DNA of 50,889 bases from Ignavibacteriales bacterium (GTDB taxonomy: Bacteria > Bacteroidota > Ignavibacteria > Ignavibacteriales > Ignavibacteriaceae): NCBI GenBank assembly GCA_012517155.1, contig JAAYVN010000057.1, positions 1 to 50,889 on the forward strand, read 5' to 3'. Positions 36,801 through 48,275 of this stretch are shown one piece after another. Numbering within the stretch: position 1 is the first letter of the stretch; each line of letters starts with the position of its first letter. Under the pieces are notes generated by a model. The model saw only the letters and a program-made list of their open reading frames with translations. It did not search any database and was not told the origin of the DNA. The translations under genes were made by a program, and so were the position numbers.

Positions 36801-37551
36801 TGCTCTGCAGTATCTTCTTTAGTAATTCCTTGTCTAAAACAACACCCCATTTTTCAATTATGTACTGTAACTGTTCTTCGTAATTCTTAGGATTTTTAAG
36901 TATTGGCTGCTTGAGTGATTTAATCAATGAGAGATTCTCAGCACTGAATGGTACTTCCTTCTCAAACCACTCCTCCATATAAGATATTAGCTCAGTGTAT
37001 ATTGTCCCTTCGGATATTCCTGTATCGTCAAATAATTCCTTTAGATTAAGGAATGGATAGTTGATGTTTTGCAGGAATATTAATAAAATCTCCTCCAGAA
37101 TTATCTCACGATTTGGTTTTTTGCCAGTTGATGCGTTTAAATACTCTTCGGTAGTTAATTCTTTTAAGTATACTTTTAGTGGTGGAAAACTATTTACAAA
37201 ATGTGTTAACAGTTTTTCTGTTTTAAGAATTCCAAAATTTGAATGAACATCCCCTAGAAGTCTTTCAAATACTTTCGGATTTTCTTCTGTCTCGTAAAAG
37301 TTGATTACATAATGAAATATTTCGTGAAGTATTCCAAGGGCTTTTATTTGACCGGGAGTGGTCTCTGATTGTTTTTGGTCGTTTTTTCTCTTTTTATTGA
37401 TTTTATCGGAAAGAAGCCTGGCTTGTTTTGAATCGGCTATTATTAAATTACCCCGGATAGAAAAGAGTGTATTCTCCATTTCATATTTAATTCTGGAATT
37501 GATATTCACATGGAAAAACCTTTCCTCTTTTAGCTCTGTTCTATATACCAA
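33883..37551 (-). CDS. Large multidomain alpha-amylase family (GH13) protein
   Basis: A 1222-residue protein with no signal peptide, so probably cytoplasmic. The GH13 catalytic barrel spans roughly residues 290-780: SSDMVPNHTG (423-432, region I), RFDAAMTL (543-550, with nucleophile D545), LLAEAF (607-612, acid/base E610) and FMSNPDEETA (666-675), where the usual His of NHD is Pro but the catalytic Asp is kept. The first 280 residues are mainly helical and contain HEIFH (76-80). About 430 C-terminal residues after the catalytic part are helical and unlike standard amylase domains. The start is TTG 37551; ATG 37479 would remove a FHVNIN segment that seems part of the fold. The role may be turnover or synthesis of intracellular glucan. 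The substrate is not known. Confidence 0.82.
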   Translation of the reverse strand: MVYRTELKEERFFHVNINSRIKYEMENTLFSIRGNLIIADSKQARLLSDKINKKRKNDQKQSETTPGQIKALGILHEIFHYVINFYETEENPKVFERLLGDVHSNFGILKTEKLLTHFVNSFPPLKVYLKELTTEEYLNASTGKKPNREIILEEILLIFLQNINYPFLNLKELFDDTGISEGTIYTELISYMEEWFEKEVPFSAENLSLIKSLKQPILKNPKNYEEQLQYIIEKWGVVLDKELLKKILQSKDLIKEEFKLFIPHGGTGTPPVPDYSQKLSEEELKKLKASGSHYDDPSIGYYVEYEKFTQDLEWMPKVVMLAKNIFVWLDQLSRQYGREIKRLDEIPDEELDKIAGWHFTALWLIGLWERSAASRKIKQFCGNPEAASSAYSLYDYEVANELGGEGAFQSLKYRCGIRGIRLSSDMVPNHTGIFSKWLLENPHYFIQREDPPYPGYTFSGPDLSDDPRYQIRIEDKYYSKQDAAVVFQMVDNFSGYTRYIYHGNDGTNMPWNDTAQLNLLNADVRESLIQTIMHVARMTPIIRFDAAMTLTKKHFQRLWFPHPGTGGAIPSRSDYALTRKEFDDAIPNEFWREVVDRMNAEMPNTLLLAEAFWLMEGYFVRTLGMHRVYNSAFMHMFMKEENEKYRELITNTLEFNPEILKRYVNFMSNPDEETAVNQFGKGDKYFGIAVMLVTLPGLPMFAHGQLEGFTEKYGMEYKKAYYNEYVDEGLVKRHEYEIFPLMKQRHLFSQVENFELYDFNQDEGGVNQNVFAFTNTNNKERAIVIYNNSYEQTRGRIKLTTGKVAEFNPDGTPKLLGHSDISESLGLNRGDDFFYICMEHKTKLESLLSAKELSDNGLWITLSGYEYKVFLEFREVKDTTGEYKNLYNYLNGKTVKSVEDAKRELALQPLHTSVIELFNFEILNELNDFVTGKSDRDNEKLSPFVKAKISSVASEIKKFLDVQINEIVLNNDIEKDFIVLRQIIELLEATKEIKSDKELKSKNSVKSAFILFDIENGDPYKNLFSIYIVIRRFIQATSKAVGKNVTFNELVLQNPVWYALIRLSSKYELIKEEYELIKILATSEGLFSERKKKIKATSRRVNKSKKPEILSKMLNPFEKLLSREEIKDFIGVNNYEGVDYFSKERFELLLKWNFTLDVFRCGMKLVEKGGDSNILTVDEIGKLIKKRDFYNLIKEMNETLTELEEIAGEASYKLEDLLTKIK

Positions 37552-37636
37552 GTAATTCTCAAAATAAATCTAAATTAACTTATAAATATAAGCATTTTCT
37601 GAAAAATTTTCCCCCTCCTTGCTAAAAAATTATGGA

Positions 37637-38083
37637 CTAGTGCTCTGAAGCCCTTAGTTTTGCCACCGTCACTGGTAAGTCCCCCTTCCCCGGATTTTTA
37701 TCTTTTGAAGTCATGAATAAAACCACGTAATATAACCCCAATATTCCTAAAGAAATTAGAATCGAAAATAACTCTTTATTTTGGTTTCCATCGAAAATAT
37801 TGTCAAATAGAATTATAGTCAAAATCAGTAATACCAGAGGGATTCCATATATTTGTATTGATGCTGAAAAAAGTTTATTTCCCGGCAATGCAAATTCAAC
37901 CAAATCCCCGGATTTGCACCCTATAGTATCCAGAACTATCACTCTCTTTTTTTCATCTTCCCCCCCTTTACAAAATACATTTGCACTGCATTCTTTGCAA
38001 TGATCAGAAGCCAGCAACTCAATTTCTACTGTCGAATCTTTCTTCGAAACAACTATCCCCCGTTCTTTTATTAACTCAGACAT
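37637..38083 (-). CDS. RseC/MucC-like membrane protein of the rnf operon
   Basis: A 148-residue protein with an N-terminal soluble domain (KERGIVVSKKDSTVEIEL), four cysteines of which HCKEC and FC lie at about residues 28-38, and two central membrane helices (about 75-92 and 105-122). This is the RseC/MucC architecture, in which the conserved Cys motif sits in a small beta domain. RseC proteins accompany Rnf complexes and, in E. coli, help reduce SoxR. It is the last gene of the unit, 47 bp after rnfB. Confidence 0.85.
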   Translation of the reverse strand: MSELIKERGIVVSKKDSTVEIELLASDHCKECSANVFCKGGEDEKKRVIVLDTIGCKSGDLVEFALPGNKLFSASIQIYGIPLVLLILTIILFDNIFDGNQNKELFSILISLGILGLYYVVLFMTSKDKNPGKGDLPVTVAKLRASEH

Positions 38084-38130
38084 TTTATATTAATCGTCTC
38101 CTGCACCTGATCCGGTCTTCCATTTTCAGT

Positions 38131-38934
38131 TTAGTTCTTGCTAATTCTTGTAATTGCTCCTGTGCTGCATTTCTCAAATGGTATCTTCTCTGGATCAAGT
38201 TTATCATAGTTTATAACTCCCAGAAAATCAACCATCTCTATTCCGCCGTCAGATTTTCTAGCGCATATTCCGCAACCTACGCAGGCAACATCACATACTG
38301 CTTTCGAAGTTTTCGGATCATCATGGTTCTTGCAGAATACGAAAACTTCCCTGTCGATAGGGTGCATCTCAATTATATCTCTCGGACACGCTTTAACACA
38401 TATTCCGCATCCTGTGCAAATCTCTTCTATAACTATTGGTAATCCGTTTTCCCCCATAATCATTGCATTAAATGGACATGCTTCTACGCAGTCACCCCCG
38501 CCCAGACAACCGTATGTGCACAGTTTGTCTCCTCCGGCAACTATGTGCATTGTTTTACAGCTTAGGGGCCCGTAATAATTAGTCATCTTCTTCACCGCCT
38601 CTTTGTTTCCCCCCTTACAAAGAATCCTGGGCACAATCTTTACAGATGCTCCTGCCTCCAAACCTAAAAGTTCAGCAATTGCCTTTGCTGTATCTTCACC
38701 GCCGACCGGACATCCGTTCACTGGTTTCTTACCTTCTACTAACTGAACGCTGAAATCATAACAACCTGCACATCCGCAACCACCGCAGTTAGCACCTGGT
38801 AATAAATCGTTCACTTGACCAATTAATGGATTTTCTTCAACTCGTAACTTTTTATCTGCTATTGCTAATGCACCGGCAAACACGAATCCAAGTCCCCCCA
38901 TCGTTGCCAGCGCTATCCAGAATGTAAGTTCCAC
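38131..38934 (-). CDS. rnfB: Rnf complex iron-sulfur subunit B
   Basis: Ferredoxin-like subunit that receives electrons from reduced ferredoxin. The 267-residue protein has one N-terminal membrane helix, then an Fe-S binding domain (C50-x2-C53-x4-C58-x16-C75) in LPGANCGGCGCAGC with one extra Cys (C55), and at least two more 4Fe-4S clusters: GDCVEACPFNA, then CTGCGICVKACPRDI and VGCGICARKS. The start is GTG 38934, behind a good AAGGAG. It lies 2 bp after the apbE stop and directly upstream of rseC. Unlike E. coli-type operons it is at the far end from rnfC. Confidence 0.93.
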   Translation of the reverse strand: MELTFWIALATMGGLGFVFAGALAIADKKLRVEENPLIGQVNDLLPGANCGGCGCAGCYDFSVQLVEGKKPVNGCPVGGEDTAKAIAELLGLEAGASVKIVPRILCKGGNKEAVKKMTNYYGPLSCKTMHIVAGGDKLCTYGCLGGGDCVEACPFNAMIMGENGLPIVIEEICTGCGICVKACPRDIIEMHPIDREVFVFCKNHDDPKTSKAVCDVACVGCGICARKSDGGIEMVDFLGVINYDKLDPEKIPFEKCSTGAITRISKN

Positions 38935-38936
38935 TA

Positions 38937-39938
38937 TTAACTCCTTATATATTTTTTAAATCCTTGTGACATATGCTCTTCCCCCTTATTGTCAATTATC
39001 AAACACTCAACATTTAACAGAGTCTTTACTAGTTTCAATCCCTTTTCCCAACCCATTATGAATATCCCTGTGGCTAACGCATCAGCCATCTCAACACTTC
39101 CCGCAATCACAGTTACACTGCGGCATCCAGTCGCGGGATATCCTGTTTTGGGATTTAGTATATGGTGATACCTGACTCCAGCACTTTCGAAAAAATTCTC
39201 ATAATCTCCTGAAGTTGCTATTCTAAATTCCTTTGTCGGGATTAGTTCGTACAATAATCTGTTTTGATTTCTTGGATCCTGTATCCCAATTTCCCACTCT
39301 CCCCCATCTGACCTTATTTCACCCCCGGCATTTATTAGAAAATTTTTCGCCCCCAAACTCTTAATTATTTCAAAAGCTCTGTCCACAGCGTATCCCTTTG
39401 CAATAGCCCCGAAATTCAACTTTATCATCTTTCTTTTTATTACGCCGTTTTTTTCAACAAGTTCAATGTTCCCCCAACCGGAATTTTCCATTGCTTCTTT
39501 TAGGATTGATTCCTTTGGTACTTCCGGTGTCTGAGTGTTGAATTTCCAGGCTTCTGTAACATTCCCTATTGTAACGTCAAATCCCCCCTCTGTGAGTGTA
39601 TTGATTTCGTTACAGTGCCTTAATAAATCATAAATTTCATGTTCAATAATTACAGTATCCCCTTTCGAATTATTAAAGCGATCTATTGGATTATCTTTCA
39701 TATATGCCGAGAACAGTTCATCGATTCTTCTGAACTCCCCAAATGCTGCCTCAAAGTACTTCCCGCTATTGCTTTCCTCGCTCTTCTTGAAAATTACTTC
39801 AACGGAAGTACCAAGCATTATCTTGGTTCTCTTTATATCTCCGTTTACCGCTTTCTTAAATCCAAGGTAGTACCCGGCAACAAAAAGTACTATAATCCCT
39901 GAAACAGCAAGAATTTTTTTCACTGATCCGCTCGTCAA
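38937..39938 (-). CDS. apbE: FAD:protein FMN transferase
   Basis: Periplasmic flavin transferase, attaching FMN from FAD to threonine in the SGAT-type motif of RnfG and RnfD. The 333-residue protein begins with a hydrophobic signal/anchor (KKILAVSGIIVLFVAGYYL), followed by GAIAKGYAVDRAF, LINAGGEIRSDG and HHILNPKTGYPA, all diagnostic. Divalent metal is bound near the C-terminal part. The start is a TTG at 39938; a GTG five codons on is an alternative. Being in the rnf operon, it most likely serves those subunits. Confidence 0.93.
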   Translation of the reverse strand: MTSGSVKKILAVSGIIVLFVAGYYLGFKKAVNGDIKRTKIMLGTSVEVIFKKSEESNSGKYFEAAFGEFRRIDELFSAYMKDNPIDRFNNSKGDTVIIEHEIYDLLRHCNEINTLTEGGFDVTIGNVTEAWKFNTQTPEVPKESILKEAMENSGWGNIELVEKNGVIKRKMIKLNFGAIAKGYAVDRAFEIIKSLGAKNFLINAGGEIRSDGGEWEIGIQDPRNQNRLLYELIPTKEFRIATSGDYENFFESAGVRYHHILNPKTGYPATGCRSVTVIAGSVEMADALATGIFIMGWEKGLKLVKTLLNVECLIIDNKGEEHMSQGFKKYIRS

Positions 39939-39966
39939 AACTCGGTTCCGAATCTCCTCTTTCTTA

Positions 39967-40701
39967 CTATCCCAGCCTTAATATTAAACCATTCGGAGCA
40001 CATGCTATCACTGGATTGATTGCTGAAATCTGATTGTGCTGACATATTTTATTTCTGCATGATGCTGACTTTACATGTGCACTATTTCTGCCGAACGAGA
40101 CTACGGTATTACCGCAGTCTCCGGCAATTATAATTTCACTCTCTTTTCTGTCTAAATCAATTTCGTCAATAATTCCACTATTGTTTTCAATTATCAGTTT
40201 TCCCGGTGATTCCAGTAAACCTGTAAGAAAACTTTTTTTCGATATCTCCGCAGTGAAGAAATAACTTGCTTCTTTCTGCTTCAGTTCTTTCCTCAGTCTG
40301 GATAACATAGAGTCGTAGTTATACTCAGGGTTTAAAACTCTCCCTTCTTTTCGTATCAGGATATCCGATATAGTAGAACTCGATATTCCACTGACTCTTA
40401 CATTAGCGCTTATCCCGCTAAAAAATCCTCCTGTGGACCCTTCTGATAATCCTTTTTCTACTACCTTTTCTACTCCGGTATTACCACTGATTCGAACCTT
40501 GGCTACTGCTTCCGATCCAATTTGTTTCCCTAAAATACTAAATACTCGGTAAACTAATTCTTTATCATTAGGTAAAAAACCATAAATTGATATGAGTTCG
40601 GATTTACTGTTTATCTTTGTAAAACTGCCAAGCCCGAATCCGGCTCCTAACGAAAGGGTTGCAATCCCCGCTGTCTTTAGAAACGATCTGCGAGATATCA
40701 T
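39967..40701 (-). CDS. Tat-exported protein with NusG domain II
   Basis: A 244-residue protein starting at ATG 40701, with a GGAG site at suitable distance. The N terminus is a twin-arginine signal (ISRRSFLKTAGIATLSLGAG), indicating folded, perhaps cofactor-bearing export. The middle part (about 40-180) is a FMN-binding-like or ApbE-partner-like region without a recognised name. The end shows SCRNKICQHNQISA and CAPNGLILRL, the paired cysteines of NusG domain II, a domain that commonly lies next to rnf and apbE genes. It does not resemble the NusG transcription factor outside this domain. Function is unknown; a periplasmic redox accessory is the simplest guess. Confidence 0.8.
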   Translation of the reverse strand: MISRRSFLKTAGIATLSLGAGFGLGSFTKINSKSELISIYGFLPNDKELVYRVFSILGKQIGSEAVAKVRISGNTGVEKVVEKGLSEGSTGGFFSGISANVRVSGISSSTISDILIRKEGRVLNPEYNYDSMLSRLRKELKQKEASYFFTAEISKKSFLTGLLESPGKLIIENNSGIIDEIDLDRKESEIIIAGDCGNTVVSFGRNSAHVKSASCRNKICQHNQISAINPVIACAPNGLILRLG

Positions 40702-40719
40702 TTTTCTCTCCAAAAATTT

Positions 40720-41364
40720 TTATAATACACTGAATAAAACCATTACACCAAGGCTTAATGAAGATACTGTGTCTTCTCCGTCTTCTTTACCGATTAAATT
40801 ATGCAAATGATATTTTACATTTGCATTTAAATCAATTACTGGAGTCTTTAAGTCAACTCCTGCCCCCAATGCAATACCTGTTCTGGTAAAACCATCTGTC
40901 TTAAATTCACTATCAGGAATGCTGTTGCTCTCCCAGTCATACTTTGAGGTAGTCTCGCCAAAATTATTGACCAGTATGTCAAATGAAATGTATGGCTTTA
41001 TTGGTAGCGGTCCCGGAATCAATGAATACTCCGCGCCAACACCAAATTGAAGTATACTTGATGATATGTCAACTGAATGAGCATTTACTATTATCGGTGG
41101 ATTTGCATTCCCCTTGCCTTCCGAGCCAAGTATTATATAATTTATACTTGCAGTTAAATCAAGCGGGAAAACAGGTAAACCTAACTTTCCCTTTAAATTG
41201 ATCATTGGCTCCATACCATATCCTATTCCTTTGGGATATTCATCCGTAAAACCTGCCGGACCGGTAAAATTCACTAATCCGCCACCGATCCCGATCTTAA
41301 AACTCTGCCCGTTGCCTGCTGCAACAAACAAAATTACCATTAAAACCATCATCATTTTTTTCAT
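40720..41364 (-). CDS. Small outer-membrane beta-barrel protein
   Basis: A 214-residue protein with a signal peptide (KKMMMVLMVILFVAAGNG) and alternating amphipathic strands ending in an aromatic/hydrophobic C terminus (SLGVMVLFSVL), typical of outer-membrane barrels of about eight strands. KIGIGGGLVNFTG and DLKTPVIDLNANVKYH are representative strands. It belongs to no family that could be named by eye. Its position between rnfA and the Tat protein inside an Rnf operon is unusual. Confidence 0.75.
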   Translation of the reverse strand: MKKMMMVLMVILFVAAGNGQSFKIGIGGGLVNFTGPAGFTDEYPKGIGYGMEPMINLKGKLGLPVFPLDLTASINYIILGSEGKGNANPPIIVNAHSVDISSSILQFGVGAEYSLIPGPLPIKPYISFDILVNNFGETTSKYDWESNSIPDSEFKTDGFTRTGIALGAGVDLKTPVIDLNANVKYHLHNLIGKEDGEDTVSSLSLGVMVLFSVL

Positions 41365-41423
41365 TTGAGACTCCTATTAAATTATTTATTATTTAACTTT
41401 CTAATTTACTAAATACTTACCAT

Positions 41424-41996
41424 TTAAATCATACCTGCAAATCCCATAAACGCAAGAGCAAGTATTCCGGCAGTAATTAGAGTTATCGGTGCGCCCCTGA
41501 AACCTTTAGGTACGTCTGCTAATTCAAGCTCTTCCCTTATTCCTGCCATTATTACCAAAGCAAGTGTAAAACCGGCTCCAGCACCAACTCCGAATATCAC
41601 ACTCTCAATAAAGTTATAATCCCTCATGCTGATAAACAATGCAAGTCCTAAAATAGCACAGTTTGTTGTTATCAATGGAAGGAATATTCCTAATGCTCTG
41701 TATAGCGGTTGACTGATTTTCTTAATTACCATTTCTACAAATTGAACGAGCGATGCTATCACAAGAATAAAGGATGGAATCTGAAGAAATTCCAGCCCGA
41801 AAGGAACCAGAATAAAATTATATAATAAGTAGCTTACTATCGCTGTCAGTACCATAACAAATGTAGTTGCCATACCCATCGATGACGCTGACGATAATTT
41901 GTTCGATACACCAATGAAGGGGCATATTCCAAGGAAATATGCCAATACAAAATTGTTAACTACTGCGGCTGATATAAATATTATAAAAAGTTCCAT
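41424..41996 (-). CDS. rnfA: Rnf complex membrane subunit A
   Basis: Integral membrane subunit with six helices over 190 residues. FVLAYFLGICPFIGVS at the start and TTNCAILGLALF in the middle are the conserved motifs of the RnfA/NqrE family; the TNC cysteine region takes part in the iron or Fe-S site at the inter-subunit interface. It works with RnfE as pseudo-symmetric partners. It is separated from rnfE by 2 bp and from the outer-membrane protein gene by about 59 bp. Confidence 0.95.
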   Translation of the reverse strand: MELFIIFISAAVVNNFVLAYFLGICPFIGVSNKLSSASSMGMATTFVMVLTAIVSYLLYNFILVPFGLEFLQIPSFILVIASLVQFVEMVIKKISQPLYRALGIFLPLITTNCAILGLALFISMRDYNFIESVIFGVGAGAGFTLALVIMAGIREELELADVPKGFRGAPITLITAGILALAFMGFAGMI

Positions 41997-41998
41997 AT

Positions 41999-42685
41999 CT
42001 ATGCCTCCTGACTGATTATTTCTTCACTACCGGCTTTTTGCACTGGTTTGTATTTTCTCACTAACTCCTCCTGTGCTATTCTCTTTTTTCTTTCAGCTAG
42101 TGTATTACTGAATCCAAGCAATAATCCGTATGTTATGAATGCTCCAGCGGGGAGAATCATCACGATCATTGGCTCAAATGTGTCCGGAAGTATCTGCAAA
42201 CCCAGTACACTTCTCGATCCGAATAATTCCCTTATCGCGCTTAACGCAACTAATGCAATCAGAAAACCGGTTCCGTTACCCAGTGCATCCAGTACCGATC
42301 TTAATGGACCATTCTTTGATGCAAATGCTTCAGCACGCCCCAATATAATACAGTTTACAACTATCAAAGGAATAAATGGTCCTAACGACTTGCTCAGTTC
42401 CGGAAACTGCGCTTTCATCACAAGATCCACTATCGTTACAAAAGTTGCGATAACCACAATATATGAGGCGATTCTTACTTGCGAGGGTATTAGCTTCCTC
42501 ATTAGAGATATTATAAAACTTGAAAATGTTAGTACGAATGTTGTGGCCAGTGCCATCGCTATTCCATTCTCAACGGTAGCTGTTACTGCTAACGTTGGAC
42601 AAGTTCCTAATATCTGCTTGAATGCCGGATTGATTTCCCATATTCCTTTGAAATAATCTTGCCAAAGAGTTACCTGCTTTTTCAT
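41999..42685 (-). CDS. rnfE: Rnf complex membrane subunit E
   Basis: Integral membrane subunit, homologous to NqrD, 228 residues. FKGIWEINPAFKQILGTCPTLAVT is the conserved N terminus with the CPTLAVT cysteine, and VVNCIILGRAEAFA is the second cysteine motif matching the RnfA partner site. The start ATG overlaps the rnfG stop by 4 bp (ATGA). Confidence 0.95.
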   Translation of the reverse strand: MKKQVTLWQDYFKGIWEINPAFKQILGTCPTLAVTATVENGIAMALATTFVLTFSSFIISLMRKLIPSQVRIASYIVVIATFVTIVDLVMKAQFPELSKSLGPFIPLIVVNCIILGRAEAFASKNGPLRSVLDALGNGTGFLIALVALSAIRELFGSRSVLGLQILPDTFEPMIVMILPAGAFITYGLLLGFSNTLAERKKRIAQEELVRKYKPVQKAGSEEIISQEA

Positions 42686-43245
42686 AGTTTACCTCCCTGC
42701 TGGAGTTTTCTCAACTTTGTCATGCCGTCATTAATTATTGCAACTACTGCTTTTGATGAAATCGTTGCTCCTGTAATCGCGATTACTTCATTTTCCTTCG
42801 GCGCAGTCCCCTCTTTAACCCAGTTCAGACTTGGCACCGTCACTAAATTCTTAAATTGATCCTTATAGTGACTCTCCGTTACTTTCGTCCCAAGCCCCGG
42901 AGTCTCTACCTGTTCTAAAACCTCCATAGATACTATTTTATTCAAATCACTGCTTAAACCAACCATCACTCTTATTTTCCCTTGAAATCCATTCCCCTCG
43001 TACGCCAGGGAATATCCTATCGGTTTATTACTTCCGTCAAATACCTTGTATATCTCTACTCCCGGAGCATTAAGATGCTCATACGACTTTCCCTCCGGTT
43101 GTACTAGAAAAATCGCTTCTTCCGTTGCTTTCTGTTTGTTCATCGCAATTAAAGGATCAGCCCAGTTGCTTATCCCTGAAAGTAACCCGCCTGAAATTGC
43201 ACCTATTATTAATAAGGTGGCTATCATATGAATTGCTGTTTTCAT
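42682..43245 (-). CDS. rnfG: Rnf complex FMN-binding subunit G
   Basis: Periplasmic-facing flavin subunit with one membrane anchor (about 5-25), 187 residues. VETPGLGTK is the FMN-domain signature, and ITGATISSKAV holds the flavinylation threonine (T161) to which ApbE would attach FMN through a phosphoester. Stop and start codons overlap those of rnfD and rnfE by 4 bp, so translation is coupled. Confidence 0.95.
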   Translation of the reverse strand: MKTAIHMIATLLIIGAISGGLLSGISNWADPLIAMNKQKATEEAIFLVQPEGKSYEHLNAPGVEIYKVFDGSNKPIGYSLAYEGNGFQGKIRVMVGLSSDLNKIVSMEVLEQVETPGLGTKVTESHYKDQFKNLVTVPSLNWVKEGTAPKENEVIAITGATISSKAVVAIINDGMTKLRKLQQGGKL

Positions 43246-44204
43246 TTTACCTCCCCGAATACCCTTGGTTTGGTGTACTTGTTAATTAACGGAACAAATC
43301 CGTTCATGAAAAGTATTGCATACATCACCCCTTCCGGTAATCCGCCGAATAATCTTATCACTACTATTATCAATGAAATACCTCCCCCATACATCCACAT
43401 CCCCTTCCCGGTAAGTGGCGAGGTTACCCAATCAGTTGCCATATAAAAAGCTCCGAACATAAATCCTCCTGCAAGCAGATGGAAAAATGGATTTGGATAC
43501 TTGCTTGGATCGATTAACCAGAATATGCCTCCAAAAACAATAACTCCCAACACCATGGCTAATGGTACTCTCCAGTTCACAACTCCAATCACAATAAGGA
43601 AAATCCCCCCTAATAAAACCGCTAAACCTGATGTCTCCCCGATGGAGCCACTTATATTCCCCATGAACATCGCTCCCAGATCAGCAGTTATTTTCTCAAA
43701 CTTGAACGCCGCTAATGGAGTGGCTTTCGATACCGCATCACTGAAATTTGGAATTGCCCATGTTGTCATTGCAACCGGAAATGCCGCTTGTAAAAATGCT
43801 CTTCCTACTAACGCTGGGTTAAATATATTATACCCCAACCCACCAAAAATCTCTTTCCCGATTGCTATTGCGAAAATTGCACCAATCGCCGTAAAGAATA
43901 ACGAAAAATTAGGTGGTAAAATCAATGCAAGTAATAATCCGGTTATCGCTGCGCTTCCATCTGAAATTGTCACCTCCTTGTGTCTCGCTTTCTTAATTAA
44001 GGCTTCCGTCCCCACACATACTCCGACACTCACTAGTATCACAAACAATTGATAAAACCCGTAAAATAAAACCGATGCAACCACCGGTGGCAATAATGAA
44101 ATTATTACCAGCCACATCGCCTGTTTCGTATTCCAGCGTGAATGAACATGCGGCGAACTCGTTAATTCTAACTTATACACAGGATTCGCTGTAGGTGTAC
44201 TCAT
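43242..44204 (-). CDS. rnfD: Rnf complex membrane subunit D
   Basis: Membrane subunit of 320 residues with about ten helices, NqrB-like. GDG-like SDGSAAITGLLLALILPPN (near 81-99) and GGLGYNIFNPALVGRAFL (121-138) are conserved. DAVSKATPL (156-164) is the predicted flavinylation site with T162; here the motif has Lys where Gly is more usual (SKAT instead of SGAT). It contributes to cation translocation. It follows rnfC by 27 bp. Confidence 0.95.
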   Translation of the reverse strand: MSTPTANPVYKLELTSSPHVHSRWNTKQAMWLVIISLLPPVVASVLFYGFYQLFVILVSVGVCVGTEALIKKARHKEVTISDGSAAITGLLLALILPPNFSLFFTAIGAIFAIAIGKEIFGGLGYNIFNPALVGRAFLQAAFPVAMTTWAIPNFSDAVSKATPLAAFKFEKITADLGAMFMGNISGSIGETSGLAVLLGGIFLIVIGVVNWRVPLAMVLGVIVFGGIFWLIDPSKYPNPFFHLLAGGFMFGAFYMATDWVTSPLTGKGMWMYGGGISLIIVVIRLFGGLPEGVMYAILFMNGFVPLINKYTKPRVFGEVK

Positions 44205-44231
44205 ATCTTTACCGTATTTCCTTAAAACTTC

Positions 44232-45575
44232 TTATGCCGTTTTTTTCTCTTTTTGTAATTCTATTACTTTCTGCTTACCTAGTCTTATCCACTGAACTAA
44301 AGGTATATTTGCCGGACAAGTGAATGTGCATGTTCCACACTCCATACAGGATGTAATGTTCAAATCCTCCGCATCTTCATACCTTTCAAGCTGTGAGTAT
44401 CTCGAGAGCTTTGTCGGAACTAAATTTATCGGACATGCTTCAATACATTTCCCGCATTTTAGGCAGGGCGTCTCCGGATGTTCATTAACCTCCTCCTTGG
44501 TCAGTACCACTATTCCGCTCGTCGCTTTCATAACAGGTGCAGAAAAATCAAACTGCGCAATCCCCATCATTGGTCCCCCCACTATAACCTTCACTGCTTC
44601 TTCCTTCACTCCTCCGCAGTAATCCAAAACTTCCTGTAACGGAGTTCCTACTTTTACCATTAGGTTCTTGGGTGAATTGATTCCTTTTCCTGTTACGGTC
44701 AATGCAGCATATAATTGTGGTTCCCCTTTGACCACTGCATCATAAATTGCCGTTGCAGTTCCAATGTTCTGAACTATAACCCCTGCATCCATTGGTAATT
44801 TACCCGGAGGAACTTCCCGCCCCACGCAGGCTCTGATTAGCATCTTTTCAGCCCCTTGCGGGTACTTTGTCTCCAGAACTTCAACTTTGATATTCTTAAA
44901 TCTTGTCGCAACGCCTTTTAACTTTTCAATTGCCTCCGGCTTGTTATCCTCAATTCCGATAATTCCGTTTTCTACACCCACAGCCTTCATTATCAAATTT
45001 AAACCAACTACCACATCCTCTGATTTTTCAAGCATAAGCCTGTAATCTCTGGTAAGATAAGGCTCACATTCACAACCGTTTAATATCACATAATCAATCT
45101 TCTTCCCATCAGGGGGCGAAAGTTTAATAAATGTTGGAAATGCCGCTCCCCCCTGCCCCACCAATCCAGCAATTCTCACTCTTTCTCTTATTGCTTCACC
45201 TGAAATAGTCTCATAGTTCAGCGGCTCGAATTTTTCGCTTCCTTCAATTGTTGTGTCAGTCTGTATTATTATTGCATCCTTTGGATAACCGGAAGTATTT
45301 GGTTCTCGGTGAATATTCATAACCTTACCGGATACGGGACTATGGATAGGAATGGAAACAAATCCCTGAGGTTCGGCAACCACACTCCCCAGTGAAACAA
45401 CACTCCCCTTTTTTACAATCGGAGTCGCTTGTTTTCCTATATGCTGGGATAAAGGTACAATTACTGTAGGTGGGTCCGGCATTATCTCAAATGCCAGATT
45501 TTCGGTCATTTCCTTATGTTCAAATGGATGAACACCGCCTCTAAATGTCTTTTTTGCAAAACTGAATAAGCTCAT
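44232..45575 (-). CDS. rnfC: Rnf complex NADH-binding subunit C
   Basis: Peripheral subunit that hands electrons to NAD+, 447 residues. GLVGQGGAAFPTFIKLS is the nucleotide/FMN-binding glycine loop, and the segment VILNGCECEPYLTRDYRL follows. The C-terminal ferredoxin domain has CLKCGKCIEACP and CMECGTCTFTCPANIP, giving two 4Fe-4S clusters. It is the first gene of the unit, with no clear ribosome binding site. Together with the other subunits it would form a ferredoxin:NAD+ oxidoreductase coupled to H+ or Na+ transport. Confidence 0.95.
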   Translation of the reverse strand: MSLFSFAKKTFRGGVHPFEHKEMTENLAFEIMPDPPTVIVPLSQHIGKQATPIVKKGSVVSLGSVVAEPQGFVSIPIHSPVSGKVMNIHREPNTSGYPKDAIIIQTDTTIEGSEKFEPLNYETISGEAIRERVRIAGLVGQGGAAFPTFIKLSPPDGKKIDYVILNGCECEPYLTRDYRLMLEKSEDVVVGLNLIMKAVGVENGIIGIEDNKPEAIEKLKGVATRFKNIKVEVLETKYPQGAEKMLIRACVGREVPPGKLPMDAGVIVQNIGTATAIYDAVVKGEPQLYAALTVTGKGINSPKNLMVKVGTPLQEVLDYCGGVKEEAVKVIVGGPMMGIAQFDFSAPVMKATSGIVVLTKEEVNEHPETPCLKCGKCIEACPINLVPTKLSRYSQLERYEDAEDLNITSCMECGTCTFTCPANIPLVQWIRLGKQKVIELQKEKKTA

Positions 45576-46172
45576 AATTCAAAAAATAATTTTAATAAAA
45601 TCGCTAAAACTCCTCAAATTTTACGCCAAATCACAATTGTGTGAAAAACAATTCAATTTCGTAAAAACCTCGGTAATTCTTCTCAGAAAAACCCTGATTT
45701 TTTGCAAAAAGATAAATTTTTTCCAAAAATGGGAACAGAACTTCAGGTTTTATTCTGTATGCCTCATCTTCTAAAAAAATATAAATTCATGTGGATTTGG
45801 AACGTTTGCTCTTCTTCTTCTAGTTTTAATCAAATCCTCAATCCCCTCAGTTTTTCGAATTGAAAATTTTACGCAAAAAACCTCATTTTCGACAAACCCT
45901 TCCCTTCTGCTACCCTTTCGGTAAGCATCCGACCTTTCTTTTGAGGTCAGATTGAGAAGGTTATAAACTGATTTTGGGGGATTTTTTACCCGGTTTTCGG
46001 GTGATGTAATTTACATACGCTAAATTAGGTAAATAATGTTGATTTTGAAACAAATTCCCCATTTCTTCTACTATTTACGACATTTTTAGCAGCAAACCTG
46101 TAACGATTAAGTACCGAAGAAGCGAAAATCCAGGATCCGGTTAATTTGTCCTTTTGTCGCCCTATCACCTTG
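45576..46172. other. Spacer upstream of rnfC
   Basis: This 597-bp stretch between the rnf operon and the T9SS gene holds no gene in any frame that could be supported. It should contain the rnf promoter (leftward). A 10-bp palindrome CACAATTGTG lies at 45632-45641, about 55 bp from the rnfC start, and may be an operator. ACCCG-GTTTT-CGGGT (45988-46002) and GACCT-TTCTTTTG-AGGTC (about 45929-45946) are small hairpins without T-tracts that would make them terminators. No tRNA-like or repeat structure was found. Confidence 0.5.
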
Positions 46173-48275
46173 TCACTTAATCAGCACCATCTTCCTCGTA
46201 CTCACAAAACTTCCCGCGCGGAGCTGATAGAAATATACACCGGAAGAGAGTTTATAGTTTTTCGTTGAGAGTTTATATTCATGAGTACCGGCGGATTGTT
46301 CCTCATCCACCAGAACAGCAATTTCATTCCCGAGGAGATCAAAAAGTTTAAGGGTTACGCGACCAGGAACCTGTAACCCGTAACTTATCACAGTTGTCGG
46401 GTTAAATGGGTTAGGGTAGTTTTGGGCGAGAGAATAAGTCTCCGGAAAGAGGAATTCATTTTCTGAATTGCTTATCATATTTGTAGTGTCTTTAATCAGG
46501 TAATTAACACCGTTTCCCGTAAGAATTATTCTTTCTCCATACTCTGTGAGTGAAACGGGTTCAAGATTTCCGTTAAAGGAGATATCATATAAAACAATGA
46601 GCCTGCCTTCAATAATTTTTATTTTCCACAGTGCAGAATTATTATTCGTCAGACCTTTCAGATATATGAAGTCATTTGTGGTAATTAATCCGGTGAAAAT
46701 CACCTGGCCCGGAATTGTCAATGAATCGAGTATTACCGGATCTGCCTGATTATTTGCTGTATAGAATAACAATATTTTAGAGTTTTCTCTGACGATAAGA
46801 TAATTATTCAGAACGGCAAAATCGAACGATCCTGACGGCCATTCTCTTTCCCATATTTTTGTAGTGTTGTTAATCCCAAAGCGGTATTTATGAATTCCTT
46901 TTGTGCTGTCAGAAAGATAGAAACAGGAATCTCTGTAAAAAACCTTCCACGGTTTCCTGAACGACGTGCTGAAAGTTACCGTTGAAAAAATATTGTTATC
47001 TTTTTTGAAAATTTTGACAAGGGAGTCCCTGAACCCGAAAAAGTAATTATCGTAATAGTCAAAGGAAACAAAGGTTTCCGGAAGTGTGAATATTTCTTTT
47101 TGATGTAGCTTTTCTTTAACAATATTAAACTTTATATAATTAAGCCCCTGTGTTTTAAATATTGATTCTCCTTTTACAGTCACCGCTCCTTCTAAGGAAA
47201 TTGAATCGGTCATTACCGGTTGGTCATTTAGCCCATATTTCATAAGTACTAAATCATTCTTTTTATATTTAATAACCATACCGGTCATGGGAACAGATTC
47301 ATAAGCGGAATACAAGGAATCAAAACCGAGCCGCGTCCCATTTATATAAATATCATTCTTATAAGCGTAATATTTACTATTGACAAGATTTACTTTGTAA
47401 TCACGTGGAAATTTCTTTTTAAGAATCCCTGCCATATCGTAAATATTTATATAGGGATCTTCATAATTTCCCTTTAACGCAAAAAAATCATGGCTTAGTC
47501 CGTTAAGTTGATAATGAAGAGTAGCAAAAACTGAAAAAATGTCTTTTGTAAAAAAAAGAGTGAAGTTTCCTGCAGCAACGGAATAGAGATTCAATTCCTG
47601 CATCGGTACCATTCCGCTTTGATATGACCTGTAAACCGCAAATATACTATCTTTGAAATCGTAGTATTGAGGACCCTGAATCACCAGATAATTTACCATA
47701 TAGAATGTATATCCCGAGGCCATCCGGTACATTTTGAAAAGGGAGTTGTTTGTGTTTACAATAATATAGGGATATGATACAACTATCGGGTTTCCTGCTG
47801 CAAAAATATCAATATCAGACCTGTAATAAACATTACTGTCGGTGATGTGGACAAGTTTGTAAGTAGTGCCAAAATAAAAAATCAGGTAAGGACCAAAAGG
47901 CTGAATTCCGGTTAATCCGGATGGAGCAGGCCACTTAAAGTCTAATTCGGGTTTGTTTGTGCTGTCCCAGCTGTAGATGTAGAGAGTATCTCCATTTAAC
48001 ACTATTAACTGCCGGTCATTAATTCGTGAATATATGGTTGGTTTGGCGCTAAAAGGAATTGGTGAAGCCTCGTAATCATTCTCCTCATCAATCAACCATA
48101 ATGCGTTGTTAGTGAAAACTAATAGTTTATTTTTATACCCGTCCTGGCAATAAAGATTATTCGTATTCGGGTATGTAAAATCTTCCCTGATAATCTCCAA
48201 ATTTCCCGGCTGCGGAATCAGTTCCGCCGACAAAACACAAATTAATATTAATATGAACATGTATTTAACCATCAT
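46173..48275 (-). CDS. Secreted T9SS protein, beta-propeller-like
   Basis: A 700-residue secreted protein. Residues 1-20 are a signal peptide (VKYMFILILICVLSAEL). The middle 590 residues are rich in beta strands with repeated YIYSWD, LFKMYR and IHKYRF-like pieces, as in WD40- or PQQ-like beta-propellers, but no catalytic motif is seen. The last 85 residues are a T9SS type A sorting domain (QNYPNPFNPTTVISY, ending SSGVYFYQLRAG and MVLIK). It is 2 bp downstream of another T9SS protein and forms one unit with it. Ligand and function are unknown. Confidence 0.8.
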   Translation of the reverse strand: MMVKYMFILILICVLSAELIPQPGNLEIIREDFTYPNTNNLYCQDGYKNKLLVFTNNALWLIDEENDYEASPIPFSAKPTIYSRINDRQLIVLNGDTLYIYSWDSTNKPELDFKWPAPSGLTGIQPFGPYLIFYFGTTYKLVHITDSNVYYRSDIDIFAAGNPIVVSYPYIIVNTNNSLFKMYRMASGYTFYMVNYLVIQGPQYYDFKDSIFAVYRSYQSGMVPMQELNLYSVAAGNFTLFFTKDIFSVFATLHYQLNGLSHDFFALKGNYEDPYINIYDMAGILKKKFPRDYKVNLVNSKYYAYKNDIYINGTRLGFDSLYSAYESVPMTGMVIKYKKNDLVLMKYGLNDQPVMTDSISLEGAVTVKGESIFKTQGLNYIKFNIVKEKLHQKEIFTLPETFVSFDYYDNYFFGFRDSLVKIFKKDNNIFSTVTFSTSFRKPWKVFYRDSCFYLSDSTKGIHKYRFGINNTTKIWEREWPSGSFDFAVLNNYLIVRENSKILLFYTANNQADPVILDSLTIPGQVIFTGLITTNDFIYLKGLTNNNSALWKIKIIEGRLIVLYDISFNGNLEPVSLTEYGERIILTGNGVNYLIKDTTNMISNSENEFLFPETYSLAQNYPNPFNPTTVISYGLQVPGRVTLKLFDLLGNEIAVLVDEEQSAGTHEYKLSTKNYKLSSGVYFYQLRAGSFVSTRKMVLIK

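Follow-up and report, generated by a model that had tools for sequence, protein, structure and literature searches.

Why should an operon for the Rnf complex carry genes for an outer-membrane beta-barrel and for an exported NusG_II protein? The question is raised by a 50,889-nucleotide stretch of DNA from an Ignavibacteriales bacterium (GenBank GCA_012517155.1, contig JAAYVN010000057.1), called the window hereafter. The exported protein bears a signal for twin-arginine translocation (Tat) and is named TatNusG here. It is a regular part of the Rnf operons in the window's family, and its gene follows that of ApbE, the flavin adenine dinucleotide (FAD):protein flavin mononucleotide (FMN) transferase, through several systems. 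The favoured reading, held tentatively at a little under even chances, takes TatNusG as an extracytosolic partner of ApbE that would aid the flavinylation of RnfG and RnfD, and the barrel as an unrelated insertion.

TatNusG in Rnf operons

The family was represented by 80 genomes, the window's own included and no other of its genus; the p-values for co-occurrence in this sample are not corrected for kinship. TatNusG was detected in 35 genomes, RnfA in 27 and ApbE in 39. TatNusG and RnfA occur together in 27 genomes, TatNusG only in eight, RnfA only in none, and 45 genomes have neither. A comparison of rnf operons within Ignavibacteria had been proposed in the first-pass annotation, and for TatNusG it came out positive: the gene is kept after rnfA, starting less than 300 bp from it, in all but one of the 26 other genomes with RnfA, which amounts to all 25 measurable operons. 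These include G046, where only the first part of TatNusG is present before the contig end; in the exception, G049, rnfA and TatNusG lie on separate contigs. Larger stretches repeatedly show the order rnfC-D-G-E-A-TatNusG-apbE-rnfB-rseC. The named loci among these stretches are mostly titled Ignavibacteria and partly duplicate family genomes.

A link with ApbE is also visible in the family. Both proteins are encoded in 34 genomes, TatNusG only in one (G074, at a contig end), ApbE only in five, and neither in 40 (Fisher p 5e-16, kinship ignored). The apbE gene adjoins TatNusG in 32 of 34 relatives; G074 cannot be judged and G060 is an exception.

The presence of TatNusG in all 27 RnfA genomes would also fit a structural role in this clade, as a subunit or lid at the periplasmic side of Rnf, free of any part in flavin transfer. 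Across 17 operons, the distances among TatNusG sequences correlate with those among RnfC (Mantel r 0.92) and RnfD (0.93) sequences. However, the correlation is equally good for ApbE (r 0.955), lower for RnfB (0.80) and RnfG (0.62), and mostly a matter of shared descent, and eight family genomes have TatNusG without RnfA. A purely structural subunit is regarded as improbable.

The same operon without the barrel was found in G254 (locus L157), a genome from another family of the same class. Among 18 operons compared, this one is closest to the window's (RnfC 76%, TatNusG 43%), and G254 is the only genome of 29 in its family with a strong TatNusG match; four others gave weak matches of the DUF3570 type described below. 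The closest operon thus lies in another family, in the sole genome there with a strong match, which suggests that the Rnf operon passed between families as one unit. Locus L092, from a record titled Proteobacteria, shows the order rnfA-rnfB-TatNusG-apbE.

The operon of the window

The first-pass annotation had read the operon as rnfC-D-G-E-A, barrel, Tat/NusG_II protein, apbE, rnfB and rseC. Profile searches recovered all ten genes in this order on the minus strand:

44232..45575, minus strand: rnfC; TIGR01945, E 3.3e-159, above the NCBIfam cut-off
43242..44204, minus strand: rnfD; TIGR01946, E 4.7e-95, above the NCBIfam cut-off; possible flavin site SKAT at residues 159-162
42682..43245, minus strand: rnfG; PF04205, E 9.5e-18, 65.1 bits (cut-off 22); ApbE motif TGAT at residues 158-161
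41999..42685, minus strand: rnfE; TIGR01948, E 2.7e-69, above the NCBIfam cut-off
41424..41996, minus strand: rnfA; TIGR01943, E 1.2e-80, above the NCBIfam cut-off
40720..41364, minus strand: outer-membrane beta-barrel gene; PF13505, E 7.9e-9, 36.4 bits (cut-off 28.7)
39967..40713, minus strand: Tat/NusG_II protein (TatNusG); PF07009, E 1.2e-9, 38.7 bits (cut-off 29.6)
38937..39938, minus strand: apbE, FAD:protein FMN transferase; PF02424, E 4.5e-78
38131..38934, minus strand: rnfB; TIGR01944, E 1.7e-30, 106 bits (cut-off 68.7)
37637..38083, minus strand: rseC-like gene; PF04246 (RseC), E 4.3e-23

All six Rnf subunits (RnfA, B, C, D, E and G) are encoded in one operon. RnfG falls below the TIGR01947 cut-off (89.3 versus 102 bits) and was assigned by PF04205 and position. 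The likely start of TatNusG is the ATG at 40701 (MISRRSFLK), inside its open reading frame (ORF). Distances are 59 bp from rnfA to the barrel gene and 6 bp from the latter to the TatNusG ORF. An Rfam scan of positions 37000-46500 gave no match. Compared with the known Rnf complex (RnfABCDGE), the operon has all six subunits together with ApbE and differs only in its two extra genes, for TatNusG and the barrel.

Clear flavinylation threonines had been claimed for both RnfG and RnfD. For RnfG this stands: the ApbE motif TGAT is present, and TGAT was found in 39 of 40 RnfG-like proteins across the loci compared. RnfD has SKAT and lacks the strict [ST]GA[ST] motif, so its threonine is a plausible site and not a clear one; TSAT or SSAT occurs in at least 29 of the 43 RnfD-like proteins from these loci, a count made irrespective of position in the chain. 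RnfG is the sole FMN_bind match in a search of the own genome (G000), and the operon's ApbE is the sole ApbE match there. TatC is present in that genome. A search of the ten operon proteins for CXXCH found none, so the gene cluster lacks the multiheme c-type cytochrome of a porin-cytochrome conduit. The operon encodes an Rnf with its own flavinylation enzyme built in.

Export signal, cysteines and fold of TatNusG

The description of TatNusG as a Tat-exported NusG_II protein was borne out by two profiles above their cut-offs, PF07009 and TIGR01409 (22 bits, cut-off 16.7). The Tat profile PF10518 remained under its cut-off (18.8 versus 22.7 bits). TatC is encoded in 77 of the 80 family genomes, including all 35 with TatNusG.

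Three cysteines of TatNusG, C219, C224 and C238, are invariant in alignment A3, and the motif CX4C...CxP occurs in all 25 sequences of that alignment. It was also found in 30 of 30 NusG_II proteins of another class, that of the L119 genome described below, and in all 16 of a further set of proteins, one of which belongs to A3 as well.

The structure model of TatNusG reached a predicted local distance difference test (pLDDT) value of 72 and a predicted template modelling score of 0.56. Its NusG_II domain, at about residues 168-248, matches NusG and DUF1312 structures with Z 9.7-12.6 and a root-mean-square deviation (rmsd) of 1.9-2.3 over 76-82 aligned residues, among them 4esn (Z 12.0, rmsd 2.2, 76 aligned) and 4obi (Z 11.3, rmsd 2.0, 79 aligned). 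An extra N-terminal alpha/beta domain precedes it. Modelled alone (pLDDT 81), this domain had no Foldseek match at E <= 0.001; the best Z was 5.2 (6smo_E, rmsd 2.9, 82 aligned), perhaps merely a common arrangement.

The sequence of TatNusG holds neither CXXCH nor the ApbE motif [ST]GA[ST]. On these grounds TatNusG was ruled out as an ApbE substrate, and heme c was ruled out for both TatNusG and the barrel, where CXXCH is likewise missing. A PHROGs search of the two proteins gave no match.

TatNusG and ApbE outside Rnf

Four of the eight Rnf-less TatNusG genomes belong to genus g8 and have a TatNusG-apbE pair with an upstream membrane protein. Pfam identified a TonB receptor, a porin and an FMN_bind protein in one g8 locus, L066, and gave no match for the membrane protein. 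The remaining four (G005, G006, G007 and G066) carry the TatNusG-apbE pair with no recognised redox neighbour; the contig of G007 measures 3.4 kb.

An unannotated membrane protein of about 170 amino acids with a TTHNH stretch was seen at L066:7517-8032, L063:7288-7794, L064:184-606 and L142:7885-8397. Its gene is flanked by that of an FMN_bind-type protein on one side and by TatNusG/apbE (apbE alone in L142) on the other. Pfam matches were absent for L064, L066 and L142. The protein may serve as electron donor in the membrane for this small flavin system.

A second type is represented by a shorter Tat/NusG_II protein encoded between DUF3570 and apbE in nine loci (L073, L140, L141, L158, L159 and L168-L171). 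DUF3570 was confirmed by Pfam in all nine. The NusG_II protein matched PF07009 in four (L073, L140, L158 and L159), and the remainder were assigned by BLAST and the cysteine motif. An hhalign comparison shows it to be a relative of TatNusG along most of its length (204 columns, probability 99.5). At L136:3295-4341 (G004), a 348-amino-acid ORF seems to consist of a DUF3570-like start, recognised by eye, fused to a NusG_II domain; its neighbours are DUF4266, thioredoxin-like and apbE genes.

Flavinylation of DUF3570 by ApbE was demonstrated in PMC8238504, which also lists thioredoxin-like and DUF4266 proteins in clusters of the two. Such clusters resemble the window's operon in having a related Tat/NusG_II protein directly upstream of apbE, and differ in that DUF3570 takes the place of Rnf. 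By word count, 'NusG' does not appear in the main texts of PMC8238504 and PMC11334425. A literature search found no paper tying NusG_II to Rnf or to flavin, or NusG to Rnf, ApbE and flavinylation together; co-mentions of NusG and ApbE were unrelated in the passages seen.

Relation to EetA and EetB

TatNusG is a Tat-exported relative of EetA-like (NusG_II/DUF1312) proteins. EetA is presumed here to be a DUF1312 protein, partly from locus names. The assignment is further supported by a table entry listing lmo2639 with a DUF1312 domain (PMC3091722), by the title of structure 4obi, EF3258, and by the locus tags of eetB (OG1RF_12512) and ndh3 (OG1RF_12510), as given in PMC9864754. The papers found include none that names EetA and DUF1312 or NusG together. 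As reported in PMC9973259, EetB (PF07456) is the substrate subunit of an FAD exporter, eetA lies beside eetB in 3,328 genomes, and eetB occurs with Rnf in 572 Clostridia genomes.

A comparable neighbourhood exists in another class, that of the L119 genome, titled Coriobacteriia. PF07009 was found in 69 of 149 genomes searched. The best 30 of these loci have, within about 1.5 kb, EetB-like genes in 21 cases, rnfB in 18, rnfA in 14 and apbE in six. These counts come from six-frame searches with hidden Markov model profiles built from two to five sequences, used because a simple ORF caller chose wrong frames in the G+C-rich loci; an FMN_bind/RnfG profile found none in the 30. Locus L119 itself shows the order rnfC-D-G-E-A-B-NusG_II-PF07456. 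In the window's own class, EetB-like, NusG_II and apbE genes stand together in two genomes: G134 was assigned by Pfam (PF07456 and PF07009), while G319 has PF07009 and an EetB-like neighbour nearly identical in sequence.

EetA-like proteins with EetB and ApbE/FmnB thus share with the window an extracytosolic NusG_II protein with CX4C...CxP near ApbE, EetB-like and Rnf genes. In contrast to them, TatNusG is Tat-exported and has the extra N-terminal domain, and PF07456 matched none of the 80 family genomes, the own one included (two of 14 control genomes were positive). An RR.F motif near the start was found in none of four EetA-like proteins tested (L116, L117, L118 and L160).

The absence of EetB from the family and the Tat signal of TatNusG fit a further proposal, which is judged very doubtful. 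TatNusG would fold around FAD in the cytoplasm, cross the membrane by Tat and hand the flavin to ApbE, replacing EetB. If true, FAD would reach the periplasm by a new route.

Partner of ApbE or electron carrier

The comparisons establish the gene order, the conservation of TatNusG in the family, its association with ApbE across systems, the linkage of NusG_II with EetB-like genes and Rnf in another class, and the cysteine motif. From gene neighbourhood we infer a biochemical role of TatNusG, that it touches ApbE, and that the barrel is irrelevant. TatNusG would work alongside ApbE beyond the inner membrane and would assist in FAD handling or in flavin transfer onto RnfG and RnfD. This help would probably come from its three-cysteine NusG_II domain.

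The main rival reading is a periplasmic electron carrier. The three cysteines would bind a cluster or switch between the thiol and disulfide states, and TatNusG would exchange electrons with the flavins of RnfG and RnfD. This reading is in keeping with the invariance of CX4C...CxP in the aligned proteins and with the Tat export of TatNusG, a pathway often used by cofactor proteins. Thioredoxin-like and DUF4266 genes beside the DUF3570-type version in L136, DUF4266 in L170 (by Pfam) and a thioredoxin-like gene in L073 (by eye) point the same way. However, the linkage of TatNusG follows ApbE and not one electron route, and the protein has no CXXCH or ApbE motif. The EetA-like proteins lacking RR.F show, in addition, that cofactor loading before export is no general need. 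An electron carrier is considered unlikely.

The first-pass annotation had offered two roles for the additional proteins, assembly or an extension of electron flow to the periplasm or outer surface. For TatNusG, the assembly factor fits better, since the protein tracks ApbE through several systems and carries neither an ApbE nor a CXXCH motif. Extended electron flow is less favoured; neither the barrel nor TatNusG has a heme or ApbE motif that would support electron transfer as far as the outer membrane.

Several observations weigh against TatNusG as a partner of ApbE. Gene neighbourhood cannot separate maturation from electron transfer. G060 keeps TatNusG in its Rnf operon and has apbE elsewhere. 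Three genomes with ApbE only (G002, G003 and G024) have no NusG_II gene near apbE; a fourth, G004, has the DUF3570-type NusG_II protein beside it. In G045, apbE-rnfB-rseC stands at a contig start with the contig break upstream, and neither RnfA nor TatNusG was matched. A wider sample of 392 genomes of the phylum gave RnfA-type matches in 96, of which 49 were above the cut-off; those below it are probably Nqr subunits. PF07009 was found in 13 of the 392 genomes and in none of family f2, which belongs to the same order and has 19 genomes with an RnfA-type match. TatNusG is missing from all 11 f2 Rnf operons read, seven of which have apbE between rnfA and rnfB, in one case split into two ORFs. 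Four more distant Rnf operons of the phylum Bacteroidota (L162, L163, L165 and L166) also lack it. In the class of L119, nine of the best 30 loci have no EetB, rnf or ApbE gene within 1.5 kb. The cysteine motif is not universal in PF07009, as the Listeria innocua structure 3ld7 and Aquifex NusG each miss at least one of its cysteines. Finally, a Listeria strain with eetA deleted still performed extracellular electron transfer as the wild type does, according to PMC9973259, while EetA-defective E. faecalis is cited with about 10% ferric reductase activity in PMC9864754.

The nine loci without these neighbours are L182, L184, L188, L189, L190, L196, L197, L198 and L202; all have the motif C[SADG]NQ[VI]C.

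The f2 and distant operons without TatNusG mark it as an accessory protein, for which neither Rnf nor ApbE has a general need. TatNusG joined a working Rnf-ApbE operon, or was lost elsewhere. Found with Rnf, DUF3570 and FMN_bind systems, TatNusG can be put to the test as a candidate accessory factor for flavinylation in general, with its three-cysteine motif as the site to mutate. A partner of ApbE would bear on how FAD reaches periplasmic ApbE without EetB and on what EetA-like proteins do.

The barrel

The barrel as a conserved part of the Rnf operon was considered and rejected after comparison of operons and genomes. It is absent from every other Rnf operon measured; absence from the rnf operons of all relatives is what the first-pass annotation had named as refuting its proposal, and this holds for the barrel but not for TatNusG. 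The gap between rnfA and TatNusG is below 300 bp in all 25 measurable other family operons, which leaves no room for the barrel gene. Homologues occur in 47 of the 80 family genomes, in 14 of 27 with RnfA versus 33 of 53 lacking it (p 0.47), and they are if anything rarer in genomes with TatNusG (16 of 35) than in those without (31 of 45; p 0.04). In the seven neighbourhoods read (L074-L080; only G036 has RnfA), the homologues lie in a conserved stretch away from Rnf that also holds a gene for 990-997 amino acids; Pfam detected tetratricopeptide repeats in the L074 copy. The barrel is quite probably a local insertion, an unrelated outer-membrane protein whose gene would have landed between rnfA and TatNusG in this genome.

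Weighed against this was a functional partner in the outer membrane, through which Rnf and the ApbE module would be connected with the cell surface. In its favour, the gene lies within the operon, separated by 59 bp from rnfA and by 6 bp from the TatNusG ORF. DUF3570, which is assumed here to be an outer-membrane barrel, a porin and a barrel-like gene of G045 also neighbour TatNusG or apbE. Such a partner is missing, however, from the 25 measurable other family operons and from L157, its homologues show no enrichment with RnfA, and those read lie in another conserved stretch. The barrel sequence has no cysteine, CXXCH or ApbE motif. A functional partner is accordingly thought rather improbable.

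Pfam searches of the barrel at E values up to 0.1 returned PF13505 only, and NCBIfam gave a single weak match, NF049866, at 20 bits (cut-off 135). The barrel was rejected as a second DUF3570-like ApbE substrate, having no PF12094 match and no [ST]GA[ST]. In a search for a separate promoter of the barrel gene, matches to a sigma-70-like promoter numbered 33, compared with 23.8 +/- 4.4 in shuffles, and the 59 bp that separate rnfA from the barrel gene hold none on the coding strand. A Bacteroidota-type promoter pattern had three matches in the whole window versus a mean of 3.88 by chance, none of them in the operon.

The barrel-like gene of G045 (L137:134-748) lies directly before apbE-rnfB-rseC at the contig start. 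Its match to PF13568 (E 0.0023) is below the cut-off, and a BLAST comparison with the barrel of the window found no similarity. An extra barrel is present in two of the operons read. Two others carry unrelated genes between rnfC and rnfD, at L085:10973-11946 (the same operon as L105) and L150:10224-10721. One of these genes is without a Pfam match, and the other has a Por_Secre_tail sorting domain.

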